Origin: Sinorhizobium arboris LMG 14919
GTDB taxonomy: Bacteria > Pseudomonadota > Alphaproteobacteria > Rhizobiales > Rhizobiaceae
DNA length: 64,000 bases
Assembly (NCBI RefSeq): GCF_000427465.1
Contig: NZ_ATYB01000009.1
Location: 1 to 64,000, forward strand
Direction: 5' to 3'
Under the pieces are notes generated by a model. That model did no database searches and was not told where the DNA came from. It saw nothing but the letters and a program-made list of their open reading frames with translations. Of this stretch, positions 39,939 to 51,485 are shown one piece after another. The position numbers and the translations under genes were made by a program. Each line of letters opens with the position of its first letter. Positions within the stretch are counted from its first letter, which is position 1.

Positions 39939-40075
39939 TGCGGCTCCGCCGTATTCTCGGCCAACGACCACGCGGCCCCATGCCAATTATTCCGAATTTC
40001 CAAGGCATTTAGACTCCAGGTCAATCGATTTACCTTTGATTGCGCGAGGTCTTTACACGCGCACTGGATGTGGTC

Positions 40076-40100
40076 AATATTGATTGATTGATTCAATATT
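40076..40100. promoter_or_regulatory. Operator-like inverted repeat upstream of the citrate-synthase-like gene
   Basis: AATATTGA, a 9-base spacer made of TTGA repeats, then TCAATATT: a perfect 8-bp inverted repeat ending 17 bases before the ATG at 40118. A natural binding site for the HTH domain encoded by that gene, implying autoregulation and control of the divergent MFS gene. Confidence 0.6.
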
Positions 40101-40117
40101 AAGGTTCCGAAGCCGCC

Positions 40118-41311
40118 ATGGGCGAAACCGCTGGATACATGACCGCCAAGGAAGCGGCGGCGGAACTGAATGTGAGCGTGGCCACGCTTTACGCCTATGT
40201 CAGCAGGGGGATTGTCCAGTCCGAGGCGCGGCCAGGTAGCCGGTCAAGACGCTATCTCGCCACCGACATCCGGGCTCTTGCCGAAAAGAACAAAATCGCC
40301 AAGCACGCGGACGGGGGCAGCATTTTGAGCTTCGGCTCTCCGCTGCTCGATTCCGAGATCACCTATACGGACGGCAAGCGGCTATATTTTAGAGGCAGGG
40401 ACAGCTCGCTGTTGGCCACGGCCAGCGCCAGCCTGGAGTCGGTCGCGACTCTGATTTGGGATTGCAGCGAAGACCATGTCTTCCAGGAGGCTCCGCCCCG
40501 TATTCCGGCCGAGTTCGCGGCTATGCGACATGCCGGAAAGGCCGATCGTCCCCTGGTATTGTGTCAGGCCCTGCTTCCACTCATCGGTGAAATGGACCTG
40601 CGGGCATATGATCGTTCGAGGCGTGGCGCATCCCAAACCGGCGCGCGTGTCCTGCGCCTCATGGCCTCGCTTGTAACGGACATGCAACCCAGTGCGACGG
40701 CAGTGCATGAGACATTGTCGTTCGCCTGGCAGGTTGGCAGCCACGCACATCTGGTGCGGTCAGCCCTTATACTCGCGGCAGATCATGAACTGAACGCATC
40801 GACTTTCACAGTTCGAGTCGCCGCCTCCGCAGGCGCTCCGTTGTATCACGCTGCTGCCGCCGGCTTGGCCACCCTGCAAGGTGCGCGGCACGGCGGTGAA
40901 ATCGAACGCGCACTGCGGTTGCTGCGTGAGATGATGAGGGAACACGATCCCGCAGAGGCCGTCTCTGCCTGGATGCGCCGGGGAGACGCGGTTCCAGGGT
41001 TTGGCCATCCTCTTTACCCGGAAGGCGATCCGCGGGCCAGGACTTTGCTGACGTTGATGGAGCGGGAGTTCACCTCTTCCGAGAGCCTTGCGCTTCACAG
41101 AGCCGCTGCTGTCGCGCAATCAATCACCGGCAGGCATCTCAACTTCGACGGCGCGCTGGCAATACTCTCGTTGCATCTTGGTTTGCCGGCTCACACAGGC
41201 CTGAGCCTTCTTGCGATCGGTCGGGTGGTAGGCTGGATTGGTCATGCTATAGAGCAGTATCTGGATGATCGATTGATCAGACCTCGGGCGCGCTATGTCG
41301 GCCTCCGGTAG
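40118..41311 (+). CDS. Citrate synthase-like protein with N-terminal helix-turn-helix
   Basis: A 397-residue fusion. Residues 8-60 are a MerR/excisionase-type HTH (YMTAKEAAAELNVSVATLYAYVSRGIVQSEARPGSRSRRYLATDI). The rest follows a citrate synthase fold with the conserved helices ending GFGHPLYPEGDPRA (catalytic His region) and IGRVVGWIGHAIEQ. Key active-site pieces are partly conserved, so it may bind rather than turn over citrate or acetyl-CoA. The HTH and the upstream dyad suggest a metabolite-sensing regulator of the adjacent MFS transporter. Confidence 0.85.
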   Translation: MGETAGYMTAKEAAAELNVSVATLYAYVSRGIVQSEARPGSRSRRYLATDIRALAEKNKIAKHADGGSILSFGSPLLDSEITYTDGKRLYFRGRDSSLLATASASLESVATLIWDCSEDHVFQEAPPRIPAEFAAMRHAGKADRPLVLCQALLPLIGEMDLRAYDRSRRGASQTGARVLRLMASLVTDMQPSATAVHETLSFAWQVGSHAHLVRSALILAADHELNASTFTVRVAASAGAPLYHAAAAGLATLQGARHGGEIERALRLLREMMREHDPAEAVSAWMRRGDAVPGFGHPLYPEGDPRARTLLTLMEREFTSSESLALHRAAAVAQSITGRHLNFDGALAILSLHLGLPAHTGLSLLAIGRVVGWIGHAIEQYLDDRLIRPRARYVGLR

Positions 41312-41750
41312 AGGTCGGCCAATGGACCTCAGGAGCGCCGCGGCAATGTCGCACCAGCATGGCGCCGATCACAAAGCAACGGAGCACACAGCCCGGCGCC
41401 TGATGCGCTGAAGCCAATTCGCGCGCGCAGTTTGACCCGTTTACTGGGTGGACAACGGAACTGCGTTAGCGTCGCTGGCGAAGGCCATCCCTACCCACCC
41501 TGTGTTCCGTCGATGGTTATGCGATCTTCAAGGCACAGAACGGGAACACTTGGACGCAAGATCATCGGTTCCGACCGTTGTGTGCGCTAACGCGTGTCTT
41601 GCCGCTCGGCAACAAAATGCCAATGCCAATTTCCAGCACCCGAACCCTTATCGATCCACCATCAGAGTATTGGCCACACGTTCCTTTTGACAGTCAATAC
41701 CCCCGCGCCTTGAACGGATTCGAACCGCGGACACGCTGAGCCCGACGACA
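41312..41750. other. Intergenic region with one copy of a flanking repeat
   Basis: About 440 bases between the citrate-synthase-like gene and the stop of rtcR, with no supportable gene. It contains the first copy of the 21-bp direct repeat (41706-41726). On the minus strand the repeat has a GGTTCGAATCC element like a tRNA T-arm. Confidence 0.5.
41706..41726. repeat. Direct repeat, left copy (RNA-repair block)
   Basis: CGCCTTGAACGGAT plus TCGAACC. The right copy at 49666-49686 is identical except for one base (T for A at position 14). On the reverse strand both carry a GGTTCGA sequence resembling a tRNA 3' end. The copies bracket rtcR, Ro60, the Y RNAs, rtcB and the cyclase. Confidence 0.6.
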
Positions 41751-43391
41751 TCAGACGCCGCCGAGGCCGGTTACGGGTCCTCCTGCATTCCGCCTCGTTA
41801 CGTCGTCGAATTTTAAGCCGAATCGGGCGAGGTATTTCACGAGACGGTCAGCATCGTTGCTGCTCTTCTTTTCCAGACGTGAGCTTGCGAACAGCGCTCT
41901 CCCAGCGGCGCTCGCTGTCACATGCTCGCGACAGACCCGAAGAACAGCGGCCAGTTGGGCGGCATCGAATTGATCGAGGCGCGCGGCTGCATCGGCGCCC
42001 AAGAGCTCTGCGATACTCGAGTCAGCATCAGAAACATCCGCCGACGGTCGCCAGAATGAATTCAGTCTGCGGATCTCGTCAGCGACGACCTCGACGGTGA
42101 TGCGGCCATGGGGGGCGAGAGTAGCCATTCGCGTTATGGAGGCCGAGAGGTCGCGGAAGTTCGCATTCCAAACTGCTTGCGGGCTGGTGGCGAAAGCGAC
42201 ATAGCGCTCGCGCGCCTCCTTATTGAAAGTGACGTTCTGGCCCTCGCGCTCCAGATAGCGCCTCAGCTCGAATTCGATGTTGGGCTCAATGTCCTCCTTG
42301 CGCTCGCGGAGCGCCGGCAGCTGGAACGTCCACAGGTTAAGGCGAGCATAAAGGTCCTCGCGGAATCTGCCCTTCCGCACTTCCTCACCGAGATCGCGAT
42401 TGGTGCCGGCAAGCAACTGAAAATCAGCCGAGACTTCGCGGTCGGCGCCGACAGGCAGGAAACGCTTCTCCTCGATCGCGCGCAGGCACATCGCCTGCTC
42501 GTCCAATCCGAGCTCCCCAATTTCGTCGAGAAAGAGCACGCCCTGATCGGCCGATTTGAGCAACCCGGCACGTTCGCCGGCCGCTCCCGTAAATGCGCCC
42601 TTCACATGGCCGAACAGGGCAGACATCGCGTGGTCGCCGCGCAGGGTCGCGCAGTTGACCTCGACGAATTGCCCGCTCACCTTGCGCTGGTTTTTCTTGA
42701 GCTCATAGATCCGGCGCGCAAGCTGGGACTTGCCCGCTCCGGTCGGACCGGTCAGCAGCACCGGTGCCGTCGAGCGGATGACGACGCGCTCGATCTCGTC
42801 GATCATACGGTTGAAGGCGGCACTGCGAGTGGAAATACCCGATTTCAGAAAGGATGTGGCGTCCTCGCGTTCGGAAGCGAACCGCTTGGCGATTTCGTCG
42901 TAGCGCGACAGGTCGAGATCGATGATCCGGTGCGTTCCGGCGAAGTTCTCCCCCGGCTCCCGCTCCCGCGGGGGAGAGAGCTGGAGCAATCGGCCAGGAA
43001 TGATCCGGGCCTCTGTGAGCAGGAACCAACAAATCTGGGCCACATGTGTGCCGGTTGTGATGTTGACGAGATAATCCTCTTCGTCCGGGTCGAACGTATA
43101 GCTGCGGGCAAAGTCTCTGAGACGGGTATAGACCTCGGAGAAGTCCCAGGGGTCCTTGAAGTTTATAAGGTTGCGGCGAACTTCCGTCGCCGGCGATACG
43201 GTTTCGATGTCACCAATAATCCGCCTGGCTAGAGCCTCGGCGTGGTTGTCGTGAATGAGCTCCAGCCTGTCGATGAAGAGGCCCGATTGCTGGCACAACC
43301 CGACATTTGGTCGCCAGCGGCTCCAGCGGTCTTCCCGCTTGCCCAAGTCAAGCGTGGTTCCCAAAATGCTGATAGCAACGCGCCGCTTCAT
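41751..43391 (-). CDS. rtcR: RtcR, CARF-domain sigma-54 activator of RNA repair
   Basis: A 546-residue bacterial enhancer-binding protein. Residues 1-180 are the RtcR/CARF sensor (RRVAISILGTTLDLGK; NITTGTHVAQICWFLL). The AAA+ domain has Walker A GPTGAGKS (215-222), the sigma-54 contact loop GAFTGA (265-270), Walker B LFLDE (286-290) and RLNLWTFQLPALRER. A C-terminal helical domain completes it. In Salmonella, RtcR is switched on by damaged tRNA fragments and activates the rsr-yrl-rtc operon. Here it is divergent from that operon, with a sigma-54-type promoter between. Confidence 0.95.
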   Translation of the reverse strand: MKRRVAISILGTTLDLGKREDRWSRWRPNVGLCQQSGLFIDRLELIHDNHAEALARRIIGDIETVSPATEVRRNLINFKDPWDFSEVYTRLRDFARSYTFDPDEEDYLVNITTGTHVAQICWFLLTEARIIPGRLLQLSPPREREPGENFAGTHRIIDLDLSRYDEIAKRFASEREDATSFLKSGISTRSAAFNRMIDEIERVVIRSTAPVLLTGPTGAGKSQLARRIYELKKNQRKVSGQFVEVNCATLRGDHAMSALFGHVKGAFTGAAGERAGLLKSADQGVLFLDEIGELGLDEQAMCLRAIEEKRFLPVGADREVSADFQLLAGTNRDLGEEVRKGRFREDLYARLNLWTFQLPALRERKEDIEPNIEFELRRYLEREGQNVTFNKEARERYVAFATSPQAVWNANFRDLSASITRMATLAPHGRITVEVVADEIRRLNSFWRPSADVSDADSSIAELLGADAAARLDQFDAAQLAAVLRVCREHVTASAAGRALFASSRLEKKSSNDADRLVKYLARFGLKFDDVTRRNAGGPVTGLGGV

Positions 43392-43422
43392 GACCTATCC
43401 AAATTTATAAAATCCTATAGAT

Positions 43423-43439
43423 GCAGCTAAGATAGCTGC
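43423..43439. promoter_or_regulatory. Candidate upstream activating sequence for RtcR
   Basis: GCAGCTAAGATAGCTGC is a perfect 6-bp dyad with 5-bp centre, about 110 bases upstream of the -24 element of the rsr promoter, the usual enhancer distance for sigma-54 activators. Only one copy is evident. Confidence 0.45.
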
Positions 43440-43550
43440 TGCCTCGTTAGTCGCGCAACCGGCGATTGACGGTTCATCCATATTTTTTTGTTATTTAGTT
43501 TCAATCATATAAGGCAGAGCGGCGTCGTTCTTCTGCGCCTATCTCCGAAA

Positions 43551-43567
43551 TTGGCACGCCTCTTGAA
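43551..43567 (+). promoter_or_regulatory. Sigma-54 promoter of the Ro60-Y RNA-rtcB operon
   Basis: TTGGCACGCCTCTTGAA matches the YTGGCACG-N4-TTGC consensus with a full -24 GG and near-full -12 (TTGA for TTGC). Transcription would start near 43578, about 25 bases before the Ro60 ATG at 43603. A second TTGGCACG at 43573-43580 lacks a -12 partner. Confidence 0.75.
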
Positions 43568-43602
43568 ATGTATTTGGCACGAACCGATCAAGAGGTGCTG
43601 TC

Positions 43603-45159
43603 ATGGTCAACAAGGCATTCTTCAAATCCTATCTCGGTAAACTGCTTCCGCGTGCGGACGCAGCGAACCATGAAGGCGCTCCGGCTTATCGCCTGACCGC
43701 CCGGGAAGCGCTGGCACAGTATGCCATAACCGGGACCTTCAACGGCACCTTCTACGCGGACGGCGCCGAGCAGCTCGAAGCGGTGAAAGCCCTCGCGCTC
43801 GAGGTCGAGCCGGAATTCCTGGCCAAGGTGGCGATCTATGCGGCCGAGAAGGGCTACATGAAGGACATGCCGGTGACTCTGCTGGCAATGCTTTCGAGCC
43901 TTCAGAGCGATGCTTTTGCCCGTGCGTTTCCGCGCGTGGTGAAAAGCGGCAAGATGCTGCGTGGCTTCGTTCAGGTCATGCGCTCCGGCGCCGCTGGACG
44001 CAAGTCGCTCGGCACGCGGCCGAAGAGGGCCGTGCAGGCGTGGCTCGAGCGCGCAAGCACAGAGCAGATCCTGCGCGCAATGGTCGGCAACGACCCTTCG
44101 CTCGCCGACGTGATCCGCATGGTCCATCCGAAGCCGTCCTCGGAGGAGCGCAAGGCGCTCTACGCCTGGGCGATTGGCAAGCCGTATGAGCATACGGCAC
44201 TGCCGGATCTCGTGAAATCGCTGGAGGCATTCCGGCGCGATCAGCGAGGTCCGGTGCCGGATGTGCCGTTTCAGTTGCTGACGTCCCTGCCGCTCACCCG
44301 TGAGCACTGGGTCGAGATCGCCCGACAGGGCGGCTGGCAGATGCTGCGTCAGAACCTCAACACCTTTGCGCGCAACGGCGTGTTCGAGGTGAACGGGTTC
44401 GCGCAGGCTCTGGCGGCACGGCTCTCCGATCCCGCGGAAGTCCGCAGGGCGAAGGTCTTCCCCTATCAGCTGATGATAGCGTGGAGGATGGCCGACAGCC
44501 TGGTTCCGGATCTCGTAAGGAACGCTCTGCAGGAGGCGATGGATATCGCGATCGCCAACGTGCCGGCGATCGAGGGCCGTGTCGTGCTCTGCCCTGACGT
44601 ATCCGGCTCCATGAGCTCGTCGGCGACTGGTTACCGAAAAGGGGCCACGTCTTCTGTGCGCTGCATCGATGTCGCCGGGCTGATGACTGCAGCCTTCCTG
44701 CAGCGCAACCCGAAGGCGCGGGTGCTTCCATTCGAGAGCGACGTGGTGCACATCGACCTCAATCGCCGGGATTCGGTGATGACCAATGCCGGCAAGCTGG
44801 CAGCGATCGGTGGTGGCGGAACCAATTGCTCCGCGCCACTGAGGAAGCTTGCCAGCGAGAAGGCGAAGGTCGATCTCGTGGTCTTCCTCTCGGACAACGA
44901 ATCCTGGGTGGACGCACGCCGTGGCGGTCAGCCGACCGCCGTGATGACCGAGTGGGCGAGGATCAAGAGGGTCAATCCGGATGCAAAGCTGGTTTGCCTC
45001 GACATCCAGCCGCACGCCACGTCTCAGGCGCCCACGCGTGACGACGTGCTCAACATCGGCGGCTTCTCCGACGCCGTCTACGACGTGATTGCGGCCTTCG
45101 CGGCCAACAGGAAAGGAGCGGAAGCCTGGGTGGAAAGCATCGAAGCGATCGAGCTTTGA
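43603..45159 (+). CDS. rsr: Ro60/Rsr-type TROVE domain protein
   Basis: A 518-residue TROVE protein. The N-terminal HEAT-like ring (about 20-310) includes YRLTAREALAQYAITGTFNGTFYADG and AIYAAEKGYMKDMPVTLLAML; the C-terminal von Willebrand A domain has the MIDAS motif DVSGS at 332-336. Bacterial Ro binds the Y RNAs encoded downstream and gates RNA access to nucleases or repair enzymes. ATG at 43603 follows AAGAGGTG. Confidence 0.95.
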   Translation: MVNKAFFKSYLGKLLPRADAANHEGAPAYRLTAREALAQYAITGTFNGTFYADGAEQLEAVKALALEVEPEFLAKVAIYAAEKGYMKDMPVTLLAMLSSLQSDAFARAFPRVVKSGKMLRGFVQVMRSGAAGRKSLGTRPKRAVQAWLERASTEQILRAMVGNDPSLADVIRMVHPKPSSEERKALYAWAIGKPYEHTALPDLVKSLEAFRRDQRGPVPDVPFQLLTSLPLTREHWVEIARQGGWQMLRQNLNTFARNGVFEVNGFAQALAARLSDPAEVRRAKVFPYQLMIAWRMADSLVPDLVRNALQEAMDIAIANVPAIEGRVVLCPDVSGSMSSSATGYRKGATSSVRCIDVAGLMTAAFLQRNPKARVLPFESDVVHIDLNRRDSVMTNAGKLAAIGGGGTNCSAPLRKLASEKAKVDLVVFLSDNESWVDARRGGQPTAVMTEWARIKRVNPDAKLVCLDIQPHATSQAPTRDDVLNIGGFSDAVYDVIAAFAANRKGAEAWVESIEAIEL

Positions 45160-45178
45160 CCCGAACGAAGCAATTCCT

Positions 45179-45199
45179 CGCGCCGCCCTGAACGGCGCG
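45179..45199 (+). other. RNA hairpin just after the Ro60 stop
   Basis: CGCGCCG, 7-base loop, CGGCGCG: a perfect 7-bp hairpin 19 bases past the Ro60 stop and 5 bases before the first Y RNA. No T-run follows, so it is more likely a processing or mRNA-stability element than a terminator. Confidence 0.5.
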
Positions 45200-45204
45200 G
45201 GGGG

Positions 45205-45337
45205 CCGTGACGAATGCCGGATGAAACTACAGGCTGTTAACCCTCCAAGACGCGGGTTCGAATCCCGCCGGGCCCTCCATTATGGCCCGTAGCTCAGCGG
45301 ATAGAGCAGGACGTTTCTCCAACTGTCGTCGTCACGG
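45205..45337 (+). ncRNA. Y-RNA-like unit 1 (tRNA-mimic, 133 nt)
   Basis: Closing helix CCGTGACGA (45205-45213) / TCGTCACGG (45329-45337), 9 bp, perfect. Motifs GACGAATG on the 5' strand and CTGTCGTCG on the 3' strand follow. An inner helix joins GGATGAAAC (45219-45227) to GTTTCTCC (45313-45320) with one bulged T. Within it lie a T-arm (GCGGG-TTCGAAT-CCCGC, 45252-45268), a stem CGGGCC/GGCCCG (45269-45274/45284-45289) closed by a loop containing CCA, and a D-arm (GCTC-N8-GAGC, 45292-45307). The order T-arm, acceptor-like stem, D-arm is a permuted tRNA. Confidence 0.85.
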
Positions 45338-45344
45338 ACGAATA

Positions 45345-45447
45345 CATGGCGAATGCGTGAGAAACTCCATCGGTAGCCCTCAGGGTCGTGGGTTCGAAGC
45401 CCACCTTCCGCAAGGAAGAAGTGTTTCTCGCAACACTCGTCGCCATG
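45345..45447 (+). ncRNA. Y-RNA-like unit 2 (103 nt)
   Basis: Closing helix CATGGCGA (45345-45352) / TCGCCATG (45440-45447), 8 bp, perfect, with GCGAATG and CACTCGTCG motifs. The inner helix pairs GTGAGAAAC (45357-45365) with GTTTCTCGC (45423-45431), 9 bp with one wobble. T-arm GTGGG-TTCGAAG-CCCAC, then stem CTTCC closed by the GNRA-type loop GCAA and GGAAG. No D-arm. A small hairpin CCC-TCA-GGG precedes the T-arm. Confidence 0.8.
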
Positions 45448-45482
45448 GACGGGCAGCTTATGCCTGGAAAACGACGCTGGTG

Positions 45483-45540
45483 CTCCGCGAATGGAGTTGC
45501 AGGTTCGAAGCCTGTGCTGCCGTCATCTCCCGTCGTGGAG
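45483..45540 (+). ncRNA. Minimal Y-RNA-like unit 3 (58 nt)
   Basis: Closing helix CTCCGCGA (45483-45490) / TCGTGGAG (45533-45540), 8 bp with one G-U. The 5' motif GCGAATG and 3' motif CTCCCGTCG flank a T-arm-like hairpin GCAGG-TTCGAAG-CCTGT (45499-45515). It lacks the inner helix, D-arm and acceptor-like stem seen in units 1, 4 and 5. An alternative 7-bp pairing (CTGCCGT 45517-45523 with ACGGCAG 45543-45549) would compete with the closing helix. Confidence 0.7.
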
Positions 45541-45577
45541 GAACGGCAGGAAGTTTTCCGGGCAAGGCTGTTTCAGG

Positions 45578-45705
45578 CAGCGGCGAATGCCGGACGGAAC
45601 TACAGCCTCACCATCGGATGGTCTGGTTGGGTTCGACTCCCACCCTTGGCGGCGCTCTCTGGCACGAGCGGGGCCATCCGGTTTCGTCCACTCTCGTCGC
45701 CGCTG
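45578..45705 (+). ncRNA. Y-RNA-like unit 4 (128 nt)
   Basis: Closing helix CAGCGGCGA (45578-45586) / TCGCCGCTG (45697-45705), 9 bp, perfect, with GCGAATG and CTCTCGTCG motifs. Inner helix GGACGGAAC (45592-45600) / GTTTCGTCC (45681-45689), 9 bp with one wobble. A hairpin ACCAT-CGG-ATGGT, a T-arm TGGG-TTCGACT-CCCA and a stem CGCTC/GAGCG follow. The ACTACAG heptad just inside the inner helix is shared with units 1 and 5. Confidence 0.85.
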
Positions 45706-45744
45706 TGAATATCCCCGCATCGGGGAACCGAAAGGAACGGAATG

Positions 45745-45880
45745 CCCTGCGAATGCCGGCAGGACTACAGGGTAGAGCGGCCCGCCGAACACTCGGCGGG
45801 CAGGTCGGGTGTTCAATCCATCCCGTGTTCCGTTGGAACGCGTAGCTCAGTAAAGCGTCCTGCCAACTCTCGTCGCCGGG
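45745..45880 (+). ncRNA. Y-RNA-like unit 5 (tRNA-mimic, 136 nt)
   Basis: Closing helix CCCTGCGA (45745-45752) / TCGCCGGG (45873-45880), 7 of 8 paired. Inner helix GGCAGGAC (45758-45765) / GTCCTGCC (45857-45864), 8 bp, perfect. Inside: a 9-bp hairpin GCCCGCCGA-ACAC-TCGGCGGGC, a T-arm GGGTG-TTCAATC-CATCC, a stem CGTGTTCC-GTT-GGAACGCG (one wobble) and a D-arm beginning TAGCTCAG. The order is again a permuted tRNA. rtcB starts 54 bases later. Confidence 0.85.
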
Positions 45881-45934
45881 ACGATGCGATGAAGAAACGA
45901 ACGGAACAGAAGGACTGCAGACGCAGAAAAGAAA

Positions 45935-47356
45935 ATGACCGAAGTAATAAGCGGACAGGACTTGATCGATGCTGGCATGAGCCAGGGCAAATGGTTTCGG
46001 GCGGCGCTCGAAGCAGCGAACAAGGCGTTGAACGACGGCGGCTCGATGGCCGACGCTCTGGCTGCTGCTCGCGCACACCAGCCCGCACCGACCCTGCCGC
46101 TGCGATCGGATAACGGCGTGACGATACACATGAACATCCGCGCCGAAAACGCCCATGAGCAGGACAACATCGAGAAGGTGAACGCCACCATGCGGGAGCT
46201 TGTCCGCACACCGGTCGTGCGGGCGGCGGCGATCATGCCGGACGCCTGCCCGTCAGGGCCGGTCGGCACGATTCCCGTCGGGGGTGTGGTCGCCTCGGAG
46301 GCCATTCATCCGGGAATGCATTCGGCCGACATCTGCTGCTCGATGGCGATTTCGGTCTTCCCGGACGCGTCGCCAAAGGCGCTGCTCGACGCCGTGCATA
46401 CGGTGACCCATTTCGGTCCGGGCGGACGTCCGCGCGGCGCACAGATCAAGCCTTCCGAGGCGACGCTTGCGGCGTTCCAGCAGAATCCGCTTCTGAGGGA
46501 GATGGTGAGCGTCGGCATTGATCATTTTGCCACCCAGGGCGACGGGAATCACTTCGCCTATGTGGGGCAAATGAGATCGACCGGTGAGCCGGCGCTCGTC
46601 ACCCATCATGGCTCGCGTGCGCCCGGCGCCCGGCTCTACGAGAGGGGCATGAAGATCGCCGACAGGTTTCGCCAGCAGCTTTCTCCTGAAACGCTGAGGG
46701 AAAATGCCTGGATACCGGCGGAGAGTGAAGAAGGGGAGATCTATTGGTCGGCCCTGCAGGCGGTCCGTCAGTGGACGAAGGAGAACCATTTCGCCATTCA
46801 CGACATGGCGGCGGAGAAGCTTGTGGCAAAGATCGGTGACCGCTTCTGGAATGAACACAACTTCGTCTTCCGGAAATCCGACGGCCTCTTCTATCACGGC
46901 AAGGGCGCCACGCCCGCTTTCGATAATTGGGCCGGCGACGCGACCGATCTCACGATCATCCCGATGAATATGGCGGAGCCGATCCTGATCGTACGCGGAT
47001 CGAACGCCGATAACGGACTTGGCTTCTCGCCTCATGGAGCCGGTCGGAATTTCTCGCGTACCGCGCACATCAGGCGTCTCCGCGAGGAATACGGCGCGGA
47101 CGCGCGCGGTCTGAGCCCGAACAACATCGCGGCGATCATGGAGAAGGAGACGAAAGGTCTCGATGTGCGCTTCTATGCGGGTTCGCCCGACGTGTCGGAG
47201 CTTCCTAGCGCCTACAAGAACGCCGCCCACGTGAAGAAGCAGATCGAGCATTACGGTCTCGCCGAAGTCGTCGACGAGGTCATCCCGTATGGCTCCATCA
47301 TGGCCGGCGACTGGCAGAGCAACGCTCCGTGGCGTCGCGGCAAACGTCGCGGATGA
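45935..47356 (+). CDS. rtcB: RtcB-type RNA ligase
   Basis: A 473-residue RtcB-family RNA ligase. Metal and GMP-site landmarks are present: HSADICCS (129-136, D132 and C135 as in canonical DIGCG), QGDGNHF (201-207), HHGSR (224-228) and HGAGRNFSR (367-375, histidine that carries GMP). The DICCS and GDGNHF variants differ from the DIGCG/GGGNHF consensus, placing it in a divergent bacterial RtcB clade. It would reseal RNAs with 2',3'-cyclic phosphate or 3'-phosphate and 5'-OH ends. Shine-Dalgarno is weak (AGAAAAGAAA). Confidence 0.93.
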   Translation: MTEVISGQDLIDAGMSQGKWFRAALEAANKALNDGGSMADALAAARAHQPAPTLPLRSDNGVTIHMNIRAENAHEQDNIEKVNATMRELVRTPVVRAAAIMPDACPSGPVGTIPVGGVVASEAIHPGMHSADICCSMAISVFPDASPKALLDAVHTVTHFGPGGRPRGAQIKPSEATLAAFQQNPLLREMVSVGIDHFATQGDGNHFAYVGQMRSTGEPALVTHHGSRAPGARLYERGMKIADRFRQQLSPETLRENAWIPAESEEGEIYWSALQAVRQWTKENHFAIHDMAAEKLVAKIGDRFWNEHNFVFRKSDGLFYHGKGATPAFDNWAGDATDLTIIPMNMAEPILIVRGSNADNGLGFSPHGAGRNFSRTAHIRRLREEYGADARGLSPNNIAAIMEKETKGLDVRFYAGSPDVSELPSAYKNAAHVKKQIEHYGLAEVVDEVIPYGSIMAGDWQSNAPWRRGKRRG

Positions 47357-47363
47357 TTGTCAG

Positions 47364-47396
47364 AAGGGCACCGCACTTGCTGGTGCGGTGCCCTTT
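47364..47396 (+). terminator. Rho-independent terminator after rtcB
   Basis: AAGGGCACCGCAC, 6-base loop TTGCTG, GTGCGGTGCCCTT: 13 perfect pairs ending in TTT, eight bases after the rtcB stop. Marks the end of the rsr-Y RNA-rtcB transcription unit and may also stop the converging cyclase transcript. Confidence 0.85.
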
Positions 47397-47477
47397 CGAC
47401 CTGGCTCAACACGGCAGTTCCCGTCCAGGAACGCTCCTCATCGGCAAGCGATCGGTTCTCGAGGTCAATCCAACCCG

Positions 47478-49235
47478 TCAATTCAGGCCGGCACGGGCAA
47501 GTCCCTCGATCAGGCGCGCCCGATCGTCGGCGCGGACGAAAGAAGATGTTGCTCCGACCGCGTCCCGTGAGATGTCAGGGACAAGCGACTTGAGCCGTCC
47601 GAGCAAGTCCGCGGCAGCCTCCTGGTTGTCCAGAAGCCCGGCACAGGCCGTGCCGATGACCAGCGGAACCGCGTGGCCGGACCGCAAGCGATGCGCCTCC
47701 CGTGCATAACTCAATCCAAGCTCGTAATTCGCCCCCTGGAAATAAGCCATGGCGTAGTAAAACTGAAAGTCGCCGAGAAAAGCCTCGCGCGGGCTCAGTC
47801 TGAGGGCGTGGTCGATGCAAGGAATGGCGTCCGCCGCGCGGCCCCCGTTGGCGTGCGCAAGTCCCAACTGACCGTGTGCAAACGCGGAGTTCGGGTTGAT
47901 AGCGACAGCCTGGCTGATCGCTGCCATCGCCAGGACATTGTCACGCGTGGCAAAGGCTATCATCGCCTGCGCAAGGTAGGCCCACGGTTCTTTATCGTCC
48001 GCGGCAATGGCTTGTTGGACGGTATCCCTGGCAAGGGCCAGGGCGTACCCCATGTCCTCCCATCCCTGGAACGCGCGCCACACCGTAATCCAACCTTTCA
48101 TGGCGAGCGCCTGGGCATAATCGGGAGCCAGTCCGATTGCCCGATCGAGCAGGGGGAGCATCTTTCGGCTGCTCTCCTCAGACAACTGGGAACACAGGAA
48201 CACCGCCCGCACGACACATTCCCAGGCATCAAGGCCATGATGCGGCTTGGGGCTTTCGCGAGCATGCTCTGCCGCCAGCAGTTCCGGCCCGATGCGGCCG
48301 ACGACGCTTGTGGTGATTTCGTCCTGAATGACGAAAATGTCGCCGAGGTCGCCGTCGTACCTCTCGGCCCAGAGATGGGCTTCGGAGGCCGCATCGATGA
48401 GCTGCGCGGTCACCCTCACGCGGTTGCCGGACTTGCGGACGCTCCCCTCGAGAACATAGCGGATCCCGAGTTCGCGCCCGACGGCGCGCACATCCACGGG
48501 CTTTCCCTTGTAGGTGAACATCGTGTTGCGGGCGATCACGAAGAAGCCCTTGAGCTTGGATAGCGCGGTGGTGATGTCCTCGGTGAGCCCATCGCTGAAG
48601 AAGTCCTGCTCCGGGTCGGCGCTCATGGCGCTGAACGGCAGTACGGCAATGGATGGTCGGTCCGGAAGTGCGGGCCTTGGCGATGCCGTTCGTGCGGTCG
48701 TCCCTCCCAGAAGCGGCCGGTACAGTCGCACCGGCCGCTCCATGTTCTTGAGCTGGCGTTCGCCGAGGTACTCATAGTCGCAATCAAGCTTGCCCTGGAG
48801 ATGATCGTACGCCGTGCCGGAAATGCAAATGCCGCCTGGATCCGCCAAGGTCTGGAGGCGGGCCGCGATGTTGACGCCATCGCCGTAGAGATCCCCATCA
48901 ACCTCGTGGATCACATCACCGAGATTGACGGCGATCCGGAAGATGATGCGTTGCTCCGTTGGGATATCGGCCTGGTTCTCGGCAACGCCCTTCTGGATGG
49001 CGACCGCGCATGCGACTGCATCGACGACCGAGCCGTACTCCACGAGCGCGCCGTCGCCCATCAGCTTGACGACACGGCCCTGATGCTCGGCAAGCAGCGG
49101 GTCGATCACCTCCCGGCGCAGAACCTTCAGGGCCGACAACGTCCCAGCCTCGTCATGTTCGACGAGGCGGGAATAGCCGACGACATCAGCGGCCAAGATC
49201 GCGGCCAGCCGCCGCTCCGCTCTTGCAGTTGCCAT
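47478..49235 (-). CDS. Adenylate/guanylate cyclase with TolB-like and TPR domains
   Basis: A 585-residue rhizobial class III cyclase. The catalytic domain (about 1-175) starts ERRLAAILAADVVGYSRLV with metal Asp residues and continues KLMGDGALVEYGSVVDAV. A TolB-like region (RPSIAVLPFSAMSADPEQDFFSDGLTEDITTAL, about 210-320) follows. TPR-like repeats (AIAADDKEPWAYLAQAMIAFATRDN, NPNSAFAHGQLGLAHANGG) make the C-terminal half. ATG at 49235 follows GGGAGAG. Converges on the RNA-repair operon. Confidence 0.88.
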   Translation of the reverse strand: MATARAERRLAAILAADVVGYSRLVEHDEAGTLSALKVLRREVIDPLLAEHQGRVVKLMGDGALVEYGSVVDAVACAVAIQKGVAENQADIPTEQRIIFRIAVNLGDVIHEVDGDLYGDGVNIAARLQTLADPGGICISGTAYDHLQGKLDCDYEYLGERQLKNMERPVRLYRPLLGGTTARTASPRPALPDRPSIAVLPFSAMSADPEQDFFSDGLTEDITTALSKLKGFFVIARNTMFTYKGKPVDVRAVGRELGIRYVLEGSVRKSGNRVRVTAQLIDAASEAHLWAERYDGDLGDIFVIQDEITTSVVGRIGPELLAAEHARESPKPHHGLDAWECVVRAVFLCSQLSEESSRKMLPLLDRAIGLAPDYAQALAMKGWITVWRAFQGWEDMGYALALARDTVQQAIAADDKEPWAYLAQAMIAFATRDNVLAMAAISQAVAINPNSAFAHGQLGLAHANGGRAADAIPCIDHALRLSPREAFLGDFQFYYAMAYFQGANYELGLSYAREAHRLRSGHAVPLVIGTACAGLLDNQEAAADLLGRLKSLVPDISRDAVGATSSFVRADDRARLIEGLARAGLN

Positions 49236-49757
49236 GGCTGTCTCTCCCTCAGGAGATCCGCCGGATGAAGCCCCAGGCGATTGACGCGACATGCACCATC
49301 CGGCTGCCCGACACCGCGACCGTGCTGGTTCATGTTACCACTGAGACGGCCATGTGGCGACGCTTCACGAGAGTGCCGAACAGAATCCGCGAAGCGGTCA
49401 CTGCAAAGGATTGTTGCGGTCCATTGCAAGGACGGCGTCATTCGGAGGAAGGTCCGTTTTCGTGACTTCGAACCCACTGGCGCGCTGAATTTGCCGAAGC
49501 GGTTTCTTCCGTCGTTGGTGGTGGGAACAATCGCTCCGGCGGCGACGTGTCCTAACCTCAGGATGGGCCACGACCATGCCCCCAGCCGGCCTCGATGTCC
49601 GCAACCAAATATCTGCGGCCGGAAGCAGCCAATCCGCTCCCGGCCCCAGGCCGACTTTCGTCCCTCGCCTTGAACGGAATCGAACCATAGATACCGCAAT
49701 TCGCATGCACCATTTCCGGCGCGCCGATAGGATATGGTTCAGCAGCCGCCGCCTATG
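49236..49757. other. Intergenic region with the right copy of the flanking repeat
   Basis: About 520 bases with no supportable gene. Open frames on both strands show low-complexity, repeat-like translation (for example GRKSAWGRERIGCFRPQIF) typical of dispersed intergenic repeats. The right 21-bp repeat copy is at 49666-49686. Confidence 0.45.
49666..49686. repeat. Direct repeat, right copy (RNA-repair block)
   Basis: Identical to 41706-41726 except for A instead of T at position 14, in the same orientation, and preceded by CCC in both cases. The two copies lie 7960 bases apart, one 25 bases beyond the rtcR stop and the other about 430 bases beyond the cyclase start. Confidence 0.6.
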
Positions 49758-51485
49758 CTAGTTACGCCAAGCGGAATCATAGCTCCATGCCTCACACGTT
49801 TGGATCCGGCCCCTGTCGGCGCACTTCACTTCAAGCGAGGTCAGGCCTGTGATCTTATAGGTACGGCGCGTGCCGCAGACCGCGCCCCCATTGGCGAATA
49901 CCTCGACGACGCCGCGGTCAAAGAACAAGGTCAATCGTTCGAGCGTCAGCGGCGCTGAGCGGTACTTGATTTCACCATTATCCTCCGCCACGGCCAGCTC
50001 AAGCCGGCGGGCGCTGTGAACCAATCTAAAGCTCTCCCCGTCGCTGCCCCGCGCGATGATTAGAATTCCATCCAGATCGCCTGCCAAAGACAACTCGACG
50101 GGGCGCCCCGGTTCGCATGCGAATTGGCAAGGTGCAGTTAGCGGAAGAGTGCGGGCGCGCAGGCGCTGACAGCCCTTCTCCGGCATCATTGTCAAATTCC
50201 GTTGGGCGTCGAGGCCGAGCACGCGCGGGAGCGACAGCTCCCCGCTATAGGGCGAACCTCCTGGTTTGCGGAATTCCCAATTGAAGAGCCAGGCAAAAGC
50301 GATCTGGCGATCCTTTGCCACGAAGCTCTGCATCGCGTAAAAGTCGGTGCCGAAATCCAACTCCTGCAAAGCGGGAGTCGCGGGCATGAAGCGGTCGCCC
50401 TCGAACGTGCCGACCTGCGCGAAAAGCAGGTTATGACGGCCGGTTTCCGGCTCAGTGTATCCTACAAAGCCCATCACCAGGACATAATCACCATCGAGCT
50501 CGAAGAAATCCGGGCACTCCACGCAGCGTGCGCCGTGCCGGCGAAAATGCTCGGGAGCCCGATAAAGGACGGACAAGAATTTCCAGTCCTCGCCGTCCTC
50601 GGACCCATAGAGCAGGACGGCTGGATCACCATCGATCGCCGCGCCGAGCACCATCCGATATGTGCCGGAGGCCGCATCATACCAGACCTTGGGGTCACGG
50701 AAGTCGTGGGCGCTGCCGTCGGGACCGTTGACAAGCACCAGCTTGGTGGCATCCGGACGCAGGAGATCGGCCGATGGCAGCACTCGCTTCTGCACCTCCT
50801 TGTAGTCCTTGAACAGGTCATAGGCCGGCAGCCGTTCTGTGTAGTAGAAGCTGAGCTTGCCATCGGGGCCGACGAAGGCACTTCCCGAGAAAGCGCCGCC
50901 GGTGGCGCCCAGCGACCAAAGATTCTGTTCCGGATGCAGGAAGACCGGCAGATGGATCCAACGGTAGAGGTCATCGCTGACGGCATGGCCCCAGTGCATG
51001 GGTCCCCATTCGGATTCAACGGGGTGGAACTGGTAATACAGGTGATAGCGGCCGTCGACGAAACACAGACCGTTCGGATCGTTCATCCAGGCCTGAAACG
51101 GCGAGAATCTGAGCTGCGGGCGATTTGCATCGCTCTCGTACCACTCCGGCCAGGATGCCCTCGGTCGAGCGATTACGCGGCCATCGCGCAACTCCAGGAA
51201 AGTCACGCCTTTCTCAGCCACGTCGTCCGGGTTGAAGCTGTAAAGCAGTGGAATTTCAATGGCGCCATCGTCCCATTCTACCGTGAGCGGACCGGCCGCA
51301 TAATGGGTATAGGAATAGAATTGAAAGTAGGGCGGCAGCCGCGCAATCCGGTAAACGACCCGATCGCCGGCACGCAGAACAAAGGCCTCGGCGTATTCTT
51401 CGGGAACTGATTTTCCAGGCTTTTGCCGAGCCCAGATCTCGAACCGCACGCCGTGCTCAGCATTCAATTGCACCCTGTTCTTCAT
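49758..51485 (-). CDS. GH32 beta-fructosidase (levanase/fructan hydrolase type)
   Basis: A 575-residue GH32 enzyme. WMNDPNG near 131 holds the nucleophile Asp, FRDPKVW near 260 the transition-state stabiliser Asp and ECPD near 322 the acid/base Glu, in a five-bladed propeller; the C-terminal beta-sandwich ends with RRTYKITGLTSLEVKC. An extra N-terminal domain of about 110 residues precedes it. No signal peptide, so cytoplasmic. It probably releases fructose from imported inulobiose or fructo-oligosaccharides. Confidence 0.9.
   Translation of the reverse strand: MKNRVQLNAEHGVRFEIWARQKPGKSVPEEYAEAFVLRAGDRVVYRIARLPPYFQFYSYTHYAAGPLTVEWDDGAIEIPLLYSFNPDDVAEKGVTFLELRDGRVIARPRASWPEWYESDANRPQLRFSPFQAWMNDPNGLCFVDGRYHLYYQFHPVESEWGPMHWGHAVSDDLYRWIHLPVFLHPEQNLWSLGATGGAFSGSAFVGPDGKLSFYYTERLPAYDLFKDYKEVQKRVLPSADLLRPDATKLVLVNGPDGSAHDFRDPKVWYDAASGTYRMVLGAAIDGDPAVLLYGSEDGEDWKFLSVLYRAPEHFRRHGARCVECPDFFELDGDYVLVMGFVGYTEPETGRHNLLFAQVGTFEGDRFMPATPALQELDFGTDFYAMQSFVAKDRQIAFAWLFNWEFRKPGGSPYSGELSLPRVLGLDAQRNLTMMPEKGCQRLRARTLPLTAPCQFACEPGRPVELSLAGDLDGILIIARGSDGESFRLVHSARRLELAVAEDNGEIKYRSAPLTLERLTLFFDRGVVEVFANGGAVCGTRRTYKITGLTSLEVKCADRGRIQTCEAWSYDSAWRN

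Follow-up and report, generated by a model that had tools for sequence, protein, structure and literature searches.

In the present study, the interval between the Ro60 and rtcB genes of Sinorhizobium arboris LMG 14919 was found to hold five Y-RNA-like units in series, the first of which is predicted to present a tRNA permuted at the anticodon arm and the last a tRNA permuted in the D loop. Read from the sequence, the units, their conservation, their permutation classes and their linkage to Ro60 suggest, with a probability of roughly 65%, that the array is a Y RNA set that would be expressed with Ro60 and RtcB under RtcR and sigma-54, would bind Ro60 and would carry tRNA-related modules mounted in two ways. 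The window, i.e. the whole stretch of 64,000 nucleotides analysed, belongs to contig 3 of an assembly totalling 6.85 Mb, and ARAGORN predicted no tRNA genes within it. The locus runs from rtcR on the minus strand through a sigma-54-like site and Ro60 to a 775-base interval and rtcB, as follows.

41751 to 43391, minus strand: RtcR, a sigma-54 activator with an RtcR sensor domain (Pfam RtcR 2.9e-79, Sigma54_activat 1.6e-50)
43552 to 43567, plus strand: candidate sigma-54 promoter TGGCACGCCTCTTGAA, 5' of Ro60, with a single mismatch
43603 to 45159, plus strand: Ro60/Rsr orthologue with TROVE and vWA domains (Pfam vWA_Ro60 4.4e-20, TROVE 9.8e-6)
45935 to 47356, plus strand: RtcB RNA ligase (Pfam RtcB 4.6e-26)

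A divergent rtcR, a predicted sigma-54-type site, Ro60, Y RNAs adjacent to Ro60 and rtcB are the features of an RtcR-controlled RNA repair operon, as in the rsr-yrlBA-rtcBA operon of Salmonella. The present locus differs from the latter in having five units against the two described and in lacking an rtcA directly after rtcB, since the next gene lies on the opposite strand and encodes cyclase and TPR domains (Pfam). For comparison, a Ro60 scan gave 96 related stretches, the best 80 of which were kept and, together with the window, make up 81 loci; the best-matching Ro60 loci among the named records are those of Ensifer sp. BR816 (91% Ro60 identity) and Sinorhizobium saheli (90%). Sites with at most two mismatches to the sigma-54 consensus used for the promoter search were not above chance (10 observed against 11.4 expected), and TGGCACGCCTCTTGAA is the sole single-mismatch site among the 10. 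The pattern TGGYAY-N5-TTGM was observed within about 250 nt 5' of Ro60 in 49 of the 81 loci and in none of 81 control stretches inside the open reading frame. Beside rtcR, positions 40118-41311 encode a citrate-synthase-like protein with an N-terminal MerR-type helix-turn-helix.

The five units are listed below with their matches to the Rfam YrlA model (RF02553); R1 is a model of class D, R2 is a model of a Leu-like sister class, and the rotation score is explained further on.

45205 to 45337, plus strand: U1, class A, predicted YrlA architecture (tRNA permuted at the anticodon arm); YrlA match 45207-45338, 61.9 bits, E 1.7e-12; rotation 80.5
45344 to 45448, plus strand: U2, class B; YrlA match 45346-45449, 33.6 bits, E 2.7e-4; R2 42.9 bits, E 1.1e-9
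45453 to 45574, plus strand: U3, diverged or decaying unit, T arm kept, Ro box lost; YrlA match 45453-45574, 21.2 bits, E 1; fold z -5.03
45578 to 45705, plus strand: U4, class C; YrlA match 45580-45706, 22.8 bits, E 0.36; 59 distinct class C rows
45744 to 45881, plus strand: U5, class D, predicted complete tRNA mimic permuted in the D loop; YrlA match 45746-45882, 28.0 bits, E 0.011; R1 134.4 bits (as a member of the training set); pair counts over 58 rows

The earlier note, written from the letters of this DNA, had placed five such units at 45205-45880 and proposed a YrlA search; they are present at 45205-45881, and the model aligns full length (1-114) to all five. None of them reaches the curated gathering score of 69 (the highest is U1), which a Salmonella-labelled YrlA itself passes at 70.9 bits. 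In the whole genome, a single further YrlA match at E≤1 was observed, a partial one (model 23-85) overlapping two predicted tRNA-Asp genes. The quoted closing helices of U4 (CAGCGGCGA/TCGCCGCTG) and U2 (CATGGCGA/TCGCCATG) are exact, and the compensation supposed to preserve such helices is seen in the relatives. The same motif pair had been claimed for every closing helix; U1, U2, U4 and U5 have this Ro-box helix (CGAATG/TCG), but U3 has CTTATGC as its 5' box and lacks the TCG partner. At the six outermost positions of the closing helix, U1, U2, U3, U4 and U5 have 6, 5, 2, 6 and 4 pairs with their own partner strand, and the 20 mismatched combinations within the window average 2.85; over all loci the values are 5.28 and 3.45 of 6, a comparison that is biased because the unit finder chose matching pairs. 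Folding z-scores from U1 to U5 are -1.94, -3.95, -5.03, -2.31 and -3.71, and the fold of U1 is only moderately better than its shuffles, 9 of 200 of which are as good.

By its predicted structure, U1 is of the known YrlA type, in the order T arm, acceptor and D arm, with a T-CCA in the acceptor loop and an anticodon-loop-like CTGTTAA.

45252 to 45268, plus strand: T arm of U1
45269 to 45289, plus strand: acceptor of U1, with an internal CCA at 45277-45279
45292 to 45307, plus strand: D arm of U1

Matches to tmRNA (29.4 bits, cut-off 47) and permuted tmRNA (15.7 bits) in and around U1 are below the cut-off and are accounted for by the T arm and acceptor. The remaining units depart from YrlA in different ways. 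U2 has a T arm, an acceptor-like hairpin and a short hairpin without a D stem, the place of which seems to be occupied by P2. In U3, a CGAATG at 45488 lies inside the central hairpin, and P1 and P2 merge in the predicted fold; its counterparts are found at loci L074 and L088, and that of L088 has CGAATGC and a possible TCGC partner, unused in the predicted fold. In U4, the acceptor is missing, and a T arm is accompanied by the near-invariant hairpin GCTCTCTGGCACGAGC, which resembles a D arm. Across Rhizobiales, this class C hairpin is almost invariant, and the flanking closing and P2 helices covary. A 187-codon open frame spans the array (45282-45845), and in a plasmid relative a hypothetical protein is annotated in the Ro60-rtcB interval on the other strand (L194).

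U5 contains the following parts.

45775 to 45778, plus strand: D stem 3' strand GAGC, placed upstream, pairing with 45845-45848 in 58 of 58 rows
45780 to 45801, plus strand: anticodon-arm-like hairpin without an anticodon loop
45802 to 45806, plus strand: variable loop AGGTC
45807 to 45823, plus strand: T arm, loop TTCAATC
45824 to 45842, plus strand: acceptor-like hairpin with a closed loop and without CCA
45845 to 45848, plus strand: D stem 5' strand GCTC, then A14 and G15

Throughout class D, the order is closing helix (with one mismatch in U5), AATGC, P2, ACTACA-like bases, GG, TA, GAGC, one base, hairpin, AGGTC, T arm (loop TTCAATC), acceptor-like hairpin, TA, GCTC, AG, P2 and closing helix, which can be read as a class I tRNA followed once round, starting and finishing in mid D loop. 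The connectors in the modelled structure are 2, 1, 5 and 0 bases long, which is the rule for class I tRNAs. Over 41 pairs and 58 distinct rows (the fourth units of L062 and L067, in which the finder starts 11 nt early, were dropped beforehand), 93.8% of cells are paired, compared with 79.5 ± 0.5% in shuffles and 37.7-54.4% in slid versions of the structure. All rows have a fully paired D stem; one of its pairs is A-U in 45 rows and C-G in 13, one shows G-U changes only and two are invariant, so that double changes were observed at 1 of 4 D-stem pairs, along with 8 of 8 in the anticodon-like arm and 7 of 8 in the acceptor. The tRNA bases U8, A14, G15, G18, A21, C48 and U55 are invariant in all 58 rows and U54 (57), C56 (55), R57 (57) and A58 (55) nearly so, and these shared bases partly reflect descent because similarity to U5 in blast was the criterion for including a row. 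Gaps obscure the column of G19, in which 24 of the 33 rows with a base have G, although GG can be seen in the rows as printed. Of the 58 rows, 39 have a four-base hairpin loop. No row has seven loop bases including U33, as the single 7-base loop lacks that base; thus, class D RNAs should not decode. No CCA end is obvious in the acceptor loops of class D as printed. In some copies of this class, the D stem is GCGC/GCGC, as in host tRNA-Pro, which is also their best match. The tRNA mimicry proposed in the earlier note is consistent with these results; that the units differ in architecture, the class of U5 being permuted in the D loop, had escaped it.

The two permutations were also observed in a rotation scan, in which each unit module was rotated through all positions and compared by alignment with 41 distinct host tRNAs. 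In the final scan (334 units after two duplicates were dropped, all rotations, 1002 pooled shuffles with a maximum of 55.0), 160 units scored above every shuffle, and for none of these was the unrotated module within 5 points of the best. Anticodon-arm junctions account for 101 of the 160, D-loop junctions for 50 and other positions for 9; 48 of the 50 D-loop junctions lie at 14-17, and those of class A mostly at 26-36. An earlier, laxer scan (shuffles at every second rotation, maximum 51.5) had given 188 of 336 units with 105, 71 and 12 junctions; the stricter rescan reduced the D-loop count from 71 to 50 and kept both junction peaks. U1 matched tRNA-Met with a junction at 28/29, above the maximum of its 12 own shuffles (43.5) and the pooled maximum. 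Scores below the pooled maximum were obtained for U2 (47.0, junction 9/10, above its 12 own shuffles with a maximum of 37), U3 (43-45, slightly over its own shuffles, 45.0 against 42.5) and U4 (42.5, under its own maximum of 45.0). U5 scored 55.0 with a junction at 15/16 (12 own shuffles, maximum 52.0), and the YrlA order with its anticodon-arm permutation, which U1 fits, does not fit this junction. Because U5 only ties the highest of the 1002 pooled shuffles, its D-loop reading rests on the class and not on U5 alone.

A sister class, which the window lacks, is predicted to be the same D-loop permutation of tRNA-Leu. The D-arm strand pattern GNAGACGC was found at 18 places, giving 17 distinct units, 16 of which were aligned; L066, with a long insert, was excluded and later recovered by R2. 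TGGCG(G/A)A stands at the opposite end in all 16 aligned rows, and 4 of 5 host tRNA-Leu carry TGGCG(G/A)AAT(T/A)GGTAGACGC; that is, the TGGCG(G/A)A and GGTAGACGC-like strands at opposite ends of these units match strands of host tRNA-Leu. In addition, one host tRNA-Leu has the variable arm TGCCGCAAGGCGTG, and many Leu-like units carry GCCGAAAGGC. The D-stem pairs of this class never vary and thus lie outside a covariation test, and the folds of its anticodon segment were judged by eye. Leucyl-tRNA synthetase does not read the anticodon, and a Leu mimic without an anticodon would fit this property.

The classes are widespread in relatives. A mechanical finder (score of at least 24) gave 2-7 candidate units in 79 of the 81 loci, a count that the earlier note had suggested making: five units in 31 loci, three in 17, six in 14, four in 10, two in 6, and seven, one and none in 1 each, the last on a contig that ends at Ro60. 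These counts are approximate, as some boxes are set wrongly; what the finder set as the third unit of the window is a hairpin of 45 nt within the true U3. Among 380 extracted units, a set that includes duplicates and loci beyond the named set, the best blast partner was U1 for 95, U5 for 65, U4 for 63, U2 for 15 and U3 for 3 (units of the window and L088 only), and 139 had no match at E 1e-6. Counterparts of the five units in two close relatives are 89-98% identical in local alignments, and classes A, C and D are shared by different genera of the Rhizobiales. Several Y-RNA-like, tRNA-mimicking units in series next to Ro60, as first supposed, are supported; the idea of an expanding or diversifying family did not hold in the sense of a recent tandem expansion, which is ruled out by old orthologous classes shared across genera. 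In Rhizobium and others, a further class E (L017:7190-7286 and 18 others, 19 rows), not found in the window, is a short Ro-box RNA that is not tRNA-like, lacks a T loop and has the highly conserved stem GGCCGCAT..GCGCCAT..ATGGAATGCGTGCGG.

The two D-loop classes are also linked to Ro60. The 73 R1 copies of at least 100 bits, 16 of which were held out of model building, come from the window and 49 of the 80 named loci (50 of 81 sources), and the next match scored 64.6; the class D row L072:7174-7304, which overlaps its neighbour, is not among the 300 R1 matches listed. R2 found 19 copies of at least 98.9 bits in the 81 sources (3 held out), followed by 71.6. In total, 56 of the 80 named loci have class D or Leu-like copies, 49 with class D and 7 more with Leu-like copies only. 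Among 385 genomes of the class, R1 matched 28 and R2 11 at E≤1e-6, and the four genomes with R1 above 55 bits, including the window, all have Ro60 adjacent. One of them, of another order and outside the training loci, has a class D-like copy (G240, 92.3 bits); the unit of G539 is of the anticodon-arm type, and that of G387 is not above its own shuffles. R2 also has a match of 79.7 bits adjacent to Ro60 in a genome from a different class of the phylum. When 10 of the 30 other genomes with an R1 or R2 match were checked, Ro60 was present in 4, and the 6 without it had matches of at most 48.5 bits, presumably tRNA-like background. Ro60-like matches were also found in 376 phage records, of which Myxococcus phage Mx1 and the two short contigs described below were inspected; Mx1 (L193) encodes a Ro60-like protein 48% identical to that of the window, near genes for tRNA-Gly and peptidyl-tRNA hydrolase, and has one partial R1 match of 22.2 bits.

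The described systems provide a close comparison. At least one Y RNA per species reportedly resembles a tRNA (Chen, 2014). The window array resembles YrlA (RF02553; Salmonella, 6CU1) in the closing Ro helix with CGAATGC and TTGTCG-like boxes, the circularly permuted tRNA module and the place beside Ro60 and rtcB. U1 and class A share its order, the Salmonella-labelled YrlA having a junction at 25/26 in the rotation scan; in contrast, all five units are under the Rfam cut-off, U4 lacks an acceptor and U2 a D stem, and in class D and the Leu-like class the cut lies in the D loop, with an anticodon-like arm and a variable region retained. A description of Y RNA 6CU1 as a tRNA in circularly permuted form has been published (the available part of PMC11472068), and accessible portions of the literature describe YrlA as a substrate of tRNA-modifying enzymes. 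No report of a D-loop-permuted Y RNA was found in the literature searched; key primary papers lie outside that search, and an earlier report is possible. The two Y RNAs that the earlier note gave for Salmonella agree with the available parts of PMC7790460 and PMC9879122; however, two short enterobacterial contigs contain Ro60, YrlB (105.5 bits), YrlA, a third Ro-box unit and rtcB. YrlB (RF02565), a Ro-box RNA of the same interval, differs from the present units in being 78 nt long without a tRNA module, and it has no match in window positions 40000-50000 at E≤10. The third unit (L191:922-1036, L192:1075-1189) consists of GGTA, a short hairpin, a T arm and an acceptor-like hairpin, and scores 31.7 bits with Rfam YrlA (below cut-off) and 44.6 bits with R1 (E 3.4e-11). 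Its rotation score of 44.0 (junction 16/17) is under the maximum of its 8 own shuffles (44.5), so that its Y RNA character is supported and its permutation is not. Both contigs (OR851267.1 and OR845705.1) are unverified records filed as Salmonella and Escherichia phage clones, and are probably host DNA because they hold a bacterial rsr-yrl-rtcB stretch; a search of this stretch against E. coli genomes gave no match.

Herein, we propose that the Y RNAs are probably transcribed with Ro60 and RtcB under RtcR and sigma-54, and that each unit, with U3 doubtful, would combine a Ro60-type closing helix with a tRNA-related display module. In U1, the Ro stem would take the place of the anticodon arm, leaving the elbow and acceptor on display. 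In U5, this stem would exit the D loop, with the D stem split over both ends, so that the acceptor, T arm and anticodon-like arm are shown; tRNA D loops vary in length, and since the handle leaves at this point the elbow contacts may survive. U2, and perhaps U3, may be a reduced form of the D-arm side, and U4 would keep T-loop and D-loop-like hairpins without an acceptor. The array would thereby give Ro60 mimics presenting different tRNA faces, and their job may be to tether Ro60, with PNPase as in the known complex of Rsr, Y RNA and PNPase, to several tRNA-handling enzymes during tRNA damage, or to compete for these enzymes.

Other explanations must be weighed against this proposal. First, the units might be competitive decoys that block a nuclease cleaving tRNAs or a different tRNA enzyme, with Ro60 merely stabilising them. 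Such a role has been proposed for Salmonella YrlA (in the available part of PMC7790460) and several tRNA types are imitated here; we consider it unlikely, given that class D has no anticodon loops and that a tether role of the Y RNA between Rsr and PNPase is described in the accessible literature on that complex. Second, all five units might be ordinary YrlA with an anticodon-arm permutation, the D-loop reading of U5 being a coincidence of conserved motifs. RF02553 does align to U5 with a local D hairpin, and U5 alone is not above the best shuffle; nevertheless, the alignment deletes part of this D hairpin, and the GAGC/GCTC pairing with its A-U/C-G exchange, the separate clustering of the D-loop junctions and the Leu-like strands at opposite ends make this explanation very improbable. 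Third, a single long cis-acting structured element might control rtcB. The units lie nearly back to back, the whole interval folds well as one molecule (z -3.96 against 20 shuffles), and its minimum-energy structure has base pairs that cross unit boundaries; yet 4 of 5 units close on themselves, unit number differs among relatives and Salmonella YrlA is treated as a separate RNA in the available part of the literature, leaving such an element just as small a chance. Finally, it is hardly credible that these are permuted tRNA genes with a Ro stem to be excised and ends to be sealed by the adjoining RtcB into working tRNAs, a type that exists elsewhere with tRNA parts in rotated order and transcripts that are circularised and cut (PMC10085705, in the part available), since class D keeps its Ro stem and lacks a decoding loop and an obvious CCA end, for all that U1 has its T-CCA and anticodon-loop-like bases.

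A Y RNA set mounted in two ways thus remains our preferred reading, and it suggests that Ro60 can hold tRNA look-alikes by more than one handle. More broadly, and somewhat short of even odds, we tentatively suggest that Ro60 operons carry panels of tRNA mimics in at least two orientations (anticodon arm and D loop) and in generic, Pro-like and Leu-like (long variable arm) forms, which would show distinct faces to different enzymes, and that a third member of the Salmonella operon may have been overlooked. At the 81 Ro60 loci examined, an array of Y RNAs is usual and a single one exceptional, and the Rfam YrlA cut-off misses all five units here. Y RNAs were known before as one kind of permuted tRNA mimic tethering Ro60 to PNPase. 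With a second permutation, in which the core is kept and the handle is moved, there would be matched mimics exposing opposite ends of the L, and these would offer a direct way to ask why Ro60 needs the tRNA shape.
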